Source: Holophagaceae bacterium
Lineage (GTDB): Bacteria; Acidobacteriota; Holophagae; Holophagales; Holophagaceae
DNA: 64,000 nucleotides
Assembly (NCBI GenBank): GCA_023257195.1
Contig: JALRCU010000003.1
Location: 62,001-126,000 of the forward strand
Direction: 5' to 3'
The notes beneath the pieces were generated by a model. It was not told where the DNA came from. It worked only from the letters and a program-made list of their open reading frames with translations, and did not search any database. Shown in pieces: positions 45,926 to 46,582 of this stretch. Position numbers and translations under genes: made by a program. The first letter of the stretch is position 1; every line of letters begins with the position of its first letter.

Positions 45926-46000
45926 GGGCATATAACTCAGCGGTAGAGTGCTACCTTCACACGGTAGAAGTCACAGGTTCGATCCCTGTTATGCCCACCA
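45926..46000 (+). tRNA. tRNA-Val (anticodon CAC)
   Basis: The full cloverleaf is visible. Acceptor arms are GGGCATA (45926-45932) with TATGCCC (45990-45996); the anticodon stem is 45951-45955 with 45963-45967, loop TTCACAC, anticodon CAC at 45958-45960. The T arm contains GGTTCGATCC. The CCA end (45998-46000) is encoded. It lies 15 bp upstream of efp and may be co-transcribed with it. Confidence 0.96.
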
Positions 46001-46015: not shown

Positions 46016-46582
46016 ATGCCCTTTATTCTTTCGACCCAAGTTCGCAGTGGAATGATTATTAATTTTGAAAAAGAACTCTGTCGAGTTATCAGTGTTGAGC
46101 ATCAAACTCCGGGTAATCTCCCCGCCCGAGTGGTGGTTAAGATGAAAAGACTCAAGGATGGAATTAATCGAGAAAACCGATTCGGCTCTCAGGATAAAGT
46201 CGAGCGAGCGAACTTAGAACAGCATAAGATGGAATTTCTTTATGCCGATGGAGATAACCTGGTTTTCATGAATAATGAAACCTACGAGCAAATTGAAATT
46301 CATAAAGATATCATGGGCGAGGATCTCGGCCTCTTGGAATCCAATATGGTGGTGGAATTAGAATTCAATGAGGGAGTTCCCTTGTCGGTGAATTTACCCT
46401 CGACTCTAGTCAGTGAGATTGTAGAAACAGAACCCGTCATGAAAAATGCGAATGCTACAGGATCCTATAAGCCGGCTAAATGTAAAAATGGCCTAACGGT
46501 TGGTGTCCCCCCCTATATCCAGACGGGGGAAAGAATTAAAATCAATACTGCAGACCGAACCTATATGGAGCGAGCTAAGTAA
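46016..46582 (+). CDS. efp: Elongation factor P with Asn at position 34
   Basis: EF-P enters the E site and rescues ribosomes stalled at polyproline. The 188 residues comprise an N-terminal KOW domain and two OB domains, the usual length, ending in a normal C-terminal segment (GERIKINTADRTYMERAK). The tip loop, canonically PGKGxA with a modified Lys34, reads P32-G33-N34-L35-P36-A37. The alignment to E. coli EF-P is gap-free from residue 1, so Asn replaces the modified Lys. The protein is presumably not lysylated by EpmA nor rhamnosylated on Arg. CTAGGAG precedes the ATG. A tRNA-Val gene is 15 bp upstream. Confidence 0.93.
   Translation: MPFILSTQVRSGMIINFEKELCRVISVEHQTPGNLPARVVVKMKRLKDGINRENRFGSQDKVERANLEQHKMEFLYADGDNLVFMNNETYEQIEIHKDIMGEDLGLLESNMVVELEFNEGVPLSVNLPSTLVSEIVETEPVMKNANATGSYKPAKCKNGLTVGVPPYIQTGERIKINTADRTYMERAK

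Follow-up and report, generated by a model that had tools for sequence, protein, structure and literature searches.

The efp gene of the window (the whole stretch of 64,000 nucleotides analysed here) encodes an elongation factor P (EF-P, a factor aiding ribosomes in joining prolines) that carries an asparagine, Asn34, at the tip of its loop, followed by Leu35, Pro36 and Arg38. From sequence comparisons we propose, giving the idea an even chance, that this protein is a working EF-P of an 'Asn-tip / shifted-Arg' loop class, which would act without post-translational modification. In a wider form, which we hold more tentatively and place a little below an even chance, the proposal is that a modification-free class of EF-P (N34 - bulky 35 - R36), with arginine replacing the tip lysine, occurs in at least three phyla, and that Holophagaceae would have adopted a second solution, N34-L35-P36-A37-R38, on which the host, with its reduced genome, would rely solely. 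The host genome (1.195 Mb, 96.97% completeness) belongs to the Holophagaceae (Acidobacteriota); its kin are Acidobacteriota MAGs and, within the family, Geothrix and other Holophagaceae. The relevant features of the window are as follows:

45926..46000, + strand: tRNA-Val(CAC), ending 15 bases 5' of the efp start
46016..46582, + strand: efp, elongation factor P, 188 aa, the sole EF-P found in the genome (equivalog and Pfam domain scores)
46106..46126, + strand: beta3-Omega-beta4 loop, residues 31-37, T-P-G-N-L-P-A (sequence; AlphaFold model strands 20-30 and 38-45)
46115..46117, + strand: codon AAT, Asn34, at the site of the modified Lys/Arg (sequence, alignment)
46118..46120, + strand: codon CTC, Leu35; Gly in 129/129 Lys-tipped EF-Ps compared
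46121..46123, + strand: codon CCC, Pro36; Arg in 91/100 Asn-tipped EF-Ps
46127..46129, + strand: codon CGA, Arg38, where beta4 begins in the model; proposed Arg36 replacement

The efp open reading frame is complete, with an ATG start, a TAA stop and an AGGAG ahead of the ATG. Its product matches the NCBIfam efp equivalog TIGR00038 from end to end (residues 6-187 on model positions 3-184; 205.2 bits for a cut-off of 185.8), passes the cut-offs of the three Pfam EF-P domains (PF08207, PF01132 and PF09285), has EF-Ps as its best fold matches, and remains below the cut-off of the EfpL model (140.2 versus 216 bits). The AlphaFold model (mean pLDDT 86.7) places the loop between strands 20-30 and 38-45, which gives it the canonical length of seven residues (31-37). 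The tRNA-Val(CAC) gene was found just upstream of efp in 30/30 Holophagaceae loci scanned (the L032-L078 subset) and in 0/3 Blastocatellia; the tRNA and efp are probably carried on one transcript.

Numbered after the tip lysine of E. coli EF-P (residue 34), the loop reads T31-P32-G33-N34-L35-P36-A37-R38 and aligns to solved EF-Ps without a gap (tPGNLPA against kPGKGSA of S. aureus 6rji). The preliminary description had placed Asn at the normally modified residue, and Pro at position 36 of a PGNLPA loop. Both points are confirmed by the exact coordinates, the gap-free loop alignment and the CCC codon, but it had overlooked Leu35, which replaces an otherwise fixed glycine, and Arg38 as a part of the pattern. 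Asn tips and unmodified EF-Ps are already known: PMC6544042 reports Asn tips in 2.23% of 1166 EF-Ps, and the window EF-P is itself one of these, as it has both N34 and P32, together with the common seven-residue loop. Judged by its sequence, it is a variant rather than a strict member of the Asn-tip/Arg36 class (N34, non-Gly35, Arg36), residue 36 being Pro, with Arg at 38 instead. It has the fold, P32, G33 and loop length in common with the EpmA-modified Lys-type EF-P of E. coli, but neither Lys34 nor Gly35, and the EpmA-model match in its genome lies below the cut-off. It differs from the EarP-type EF-P (Arg tip, no Pro32, EarP gene) by its Asn34 and Pro32, and from a hypusinated factor (IF5A-like; Lys acceptor plus deoxyhypusine synthase, DHS) by the absence of the Lys acceptor, a DHS homologue being present in the genome.

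EF-Ps were found in 107/109 Acidobacteriota genomes, 70/70 genomes from the phylum of an Ignavibacteria MAG and 67/69 from the phylum of a Bacteriovoracaceae MAG. Once the rows with EfpL-like loops (PTARG or PSARG), a gap at the tip or fewer than 150 aa were excluded, 240 EF-Ps were retained from these three phyla (129 Lys-tipped, 100 Asn-tipped and 11 Arg-tipped), in which the tip and the residues past it are linked in a near-perfect manner. First, Gly35 occurs in 129/129 Lys-tipped and 0/100 Asn-tipped EF-Ps, the latter having Leu (77), Trp (15), Lys (7) or Arg (1) at this position. Second, Arg36 accompanies the Asn tip in 91/100 cases, and the other nine, all from Holophagaceae, have Pro36 and Arg38 instead, and are the only Asn-tipped rows with a basic residue at 38. 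By comparison, position 36 or 38 is basic in only 9/129 Lys-tipped EF-Ps, and Arg36 is not exclusive to Asn tips because it is also found with Lys34 in 8/129 rows; each of the 240 EF-Ps has Lys or Arg in at least one of the positions 34, 36 and 38. Third, columns 35 and 36 are the most informative on the tip (0.99 and 0.71 bits; next best 0.57), also within phyla (0.91 and 0.76 bits; next 0.58), and Fisher's p for the tip linkage, uncorrected and ignoring kinship, is 5e-42. Fourth, with the loop columns left out of the tree, the Asn state changed at least 12 times, at least six of them on well-supported branches; among the independent pairs, 4.3 of 6 have the basic residue at 36 going with the tip and none has it going against (median p 0.125), a result that is consistent with the linkage and is not significant at 0.05.

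The Lys-tipped families f10, f20 and f52, which nest within an Asn clade, have no Arg36, while families f17 and f43 combine Lys34 with Arg36 beside Asn clades. Genome G076 (loci L173 and L176) encodes two canonical EF-Ps, with PGNLRG and PGKGRA loops, and offers a natural comparison of the Asn and Lys tips. The Lys34/Arg36 families beside the Asn clades and the G076 pair both fit the idea that Arg36 may have arisen before Asn34, or may have permitted it. Other rows of the survey have loops of their own: in genome G070, locus L239 reads IANRRA, an Asn tip that lacks Pro32 and Gly33 and is followed by Arg35 and Arg36, and three rows from the phylum of G170 are Arg-tipped EF-Ps with a KTARAAAKVW loop, unlike EarP or EfpL loops. 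Outside the loop, residue 55, in the KOW domain, is Arg in 93/100 Asn-tipped and Thr in 100/129 Lys-tipped EF-Ps, and is possibly a further linked change; the PP at residues 165-166 gives a weaker signal than the loop (P166 in 42/100 Asn versus 13/129 Lys rows).

In E. coli EF-P the modified Lys34 runs along the CCA backbone, and EfpL (YeiP; 8s8u) is modification-free and works with an unmodified Arg that, according to docking, lies on the CCA bases (PMC11611912). Similarly to this Arg of EfpL, which is carried at the tip of a loop two residues longer, whereas the window EF-P combines an Asn tip with the canonical length, we propose that the role of the modified lysine is taken over by an arginine located two to four positions beyond the tip. 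In the Asn class, Arg36 would contact the tRNA CCA end and residue 35 would set the course of the loop. In Holophagaceae, the Arg would have moved two further residues to R38, with Pro at 36, leaving a loop bounded by P32 and P36. Arg38, perhaps on the same strand face as Arg36 because it stands two residues further on, would then make the CCA contact, and Pro36 would stiffen the turn, which is the weakest point of the proposal. Against it, R38, as the first beta4 residue in the model, may be too distant from the tRNA end, and the window's own family breaks the R36 rule. As for experiments, the preliminary description held that non-Lys tips were known to work through loop shape, a view that is not borne out in this form by PMC6544042, which reports Asn tips, yet finds the K34N mutant of E. 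coli EF-P inactive. In the same paper, Asn-, Gln-, Met- and Ala-tipped EF-Ps were found dead in E. coli, and G35N or Q36S alone cost most of the E. coli EF-P activity. Our proposal leads one to expect the K34N failure, because that mutant kept Gly35 and Gln36 and was without the companions Leu35/Arg36.

The alternative that fares best, though we regard it as unlikely, is that of a rigid loop alone, in which P32 and P36 would stiffen the turn as in the actinobacterial PGKGP EF-P, the backbone acting with no side chain past the tip. This actinobacterial EF-P (6s8z) presumably acts unmodified. Its prolines at 32 and 36 have the same spacing as those of the window EF-P, with G33 also in common, and P36 is fixed in all Holophagaceae loops covered; moreover, PMC11611912 refers to unmodified loops that are stiffened (its ref. 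79). However, the PGKGP EF-Ps retain Lys34 and Gly35, where the window EF-P has N34 and L35 together with R38. P36 is found in only 9/100 Asn-tipped EF-Ps, and stiffening by P36 cannot explain the Asn-tip class because 91/100 have Arg36. A rigid loop would also leave unexplained the Arg38 that is present exactly where Arg36 was lost. The preliminary description had itself suggested an unmodified EF-P that depends on loop shape. The first half of that suggestion agrees with the absence of a second EF-P and of an EpmA above cut-off in the genome, but an explanation by loop shape alone takes no account of the Arg that goes with every Asn tip (R36 in 91/100, R38 in 9/100).

Somewhat less likely still is that an enzyme of a new kind modifies Arg36/Arg38 or Asn34, which would make the class another modified EF-P. 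Most EF-Ps studied are modified, and new modifying enzymes have been discovered repeatedly; to our knowledge, the known EF-P modifications require Lys or Arg at 34. Against such an enzyme, no candidate modifier gene was seen beside efp in the window (neighbours judged by reading), and among enzymes of known type only the DHS homologue is a candidate. As for the known enzymes, the homologue check that the preliminary description had proposed for epmA detected no EpmA above cut-off in 61 Holophagaceae genomes, host included; the best EpmA-model match of the host (235 versus 286.9 bits) falls in a 507-codon frame that looks like a lysyl-tRNA synthetase (LysRS) gene. Across the 109 Acidobacteriota genomes, EpmA was above cut-off in 11, of which 10 have a Lys-tipped EF-P, one (G110) has no EF-P match, and none has an Asn-tipped EF-P; the EpmA gene directly adjoins efp in G143, G160, G075 and G104. 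EarP was matched in 0/61 Holophagaceae, a count that shows little since the search gave no match in the controls either.

The DHS homologue of the host is located as follows:

G000:C10:183670-184578 (L143 18653-19630): DHS homologue, on a contig other than that of efp, beside rpsT and argS (names by reading)

That this protein modifies the window EF-P appears very improbable to us. A DHS-like protein is encoded in 58/61 Holophagaceae, including 3/3 of the genus, and in the host homologue a likely catalytic Lys region (WGK) is recognisable by eye. DHS homologues occur in 55/56 Asn-tip versus 21/49 other Acidobacteriota genomes (genome-level Fisher p 3e-11), which repeats an observation of PMC6544042, where modification of Lys- or Asn-tipped EF-Ps by DHS was the subject of speculation. 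DHS requires a lysine acceptor, however, and the strong genome-level association disappears when ancestry is taken into account: of 4 independent pairs, DHS goes with the tip in 0.8 and against it in 0.4. Furthermore, the Lys-tipped families nested in the Asn clade retain DHS, and 2/5 Asn-tip genomes outside Acidobacteriota, which may be incomplete, are devoid of it. The host homologue matches no NCBIfam model above cut-off, its best match being the homospermidine biosynthesis protein (130 versus 450 bits), its gene is unlinked to efp, and bacterial DHS homologues make homospermidine, caldomycin or related polyamines (PMC9992855, PMC10981699). The DHS homologue is probably a polyamine enzyme, and its co-occurrence with the Asn tip probably follows ancestry. 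It is retained in the 1.2-Mb host genome; G070 (the genome with the IANRRA loop) is the only surveyed Asn-tip Acidobacteriota genome without it.

Returning to the Asn-tip / shifted-Arg proposal, the loop is constant within the family. PGNLPA was read in 84/84 Holophagaceae loci covering the loop (some genomes counted twice; two further loci, outside the 84, are fragments without the loop), so that a sequencing error is excluded; the type strain of Geothrix fermentans has the PGNLPAR loop as well. Across 62 distinct genes of the family, residues 28-38 are invariant for a median protein identity of 0.85; as these genes were selected by motif, the invariance rests on the 84 loci, and only the codon variety is informative (two Asn codons at 34, four Pro codons at 36, all six Arg codons at 38). 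Holophagaceae-type EF-Ps with PGNLPA (70% and 76% identity) were also seen in L074 and L079, from MAGs titled Deltaproteobacteria and Bacillota, which are probably mislabelled bins.

A second canonical efp gene, which according to the preliminary description would speak against an unmodified EF-P, was looked for and none was found in the host genome, a single EF-P match being present there and in each of two congeners (3/3 genomes of the genus). In most other Holophagaceae, EF-P is present in a second copy, 25-33% identical (L124-L140). The 17 copies examined have an extended PTARGGQ loop, where Pro precedes Arg by three residues, as in the EfpL described in PMC11611912. We name them EfpL-like only, because the one copy scanned misses the cut-off of the EfpL model (153 versus 216) and passes that of the efp model (197.6 versus 185.8). 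No counterpart was found in the three genomes of the window's genus, from which the EfpL-like copy was presumably lost in genome reduction, and which relies on its Asn-tip EF-P alone. An EfpL-like copy was also considered as a needed partner of the Asn tip (22/56 Asn-tip versus 3/49 other genomes), but the family-level p is 0.075 and the copy is absent from the genus, hence it is not required. More widely, in at least 31/56 of the Asn-tip Acidobacteriota genomes the Asn-tipped protein is the sole EF-P homologue, and two more have an unread second match (G111:C11 and G131:C1). The genus still encodes polyproline, as the PPPNITG motif of ValRS is kept in 3/3 genomes; this count uses only the rows showing PPPN.TG, since the longest-frame pick missed ValRS in some relatives with large genomes (L277, L278 and L286-L288). 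As background, a crude ORF picker gave 42 PP runs in 58 ORFs of the window. We see very little chance that the Asn tip marks a degenerate EF-P retained for a weak or different role, as the inactive K34N mutant of E. coli might suggest (PMC6544042), given the constancy of the loop, the many Asn-tip genomes with no other EF-P homologue and the PPP retained in ValRS.

The Asn34 - non-Gly35 - Arg36 linkage and its Holophagaceae exception were not found in the open-access literature searched. The linked change offers a reason for the K34N failure. If the proposal is true, what EF-P requires is a positive charge close to the CCA end and not a modification, a notion that would bear on the origin of the modification systems and on the design of a modification-free EF-P for in vitro translation.
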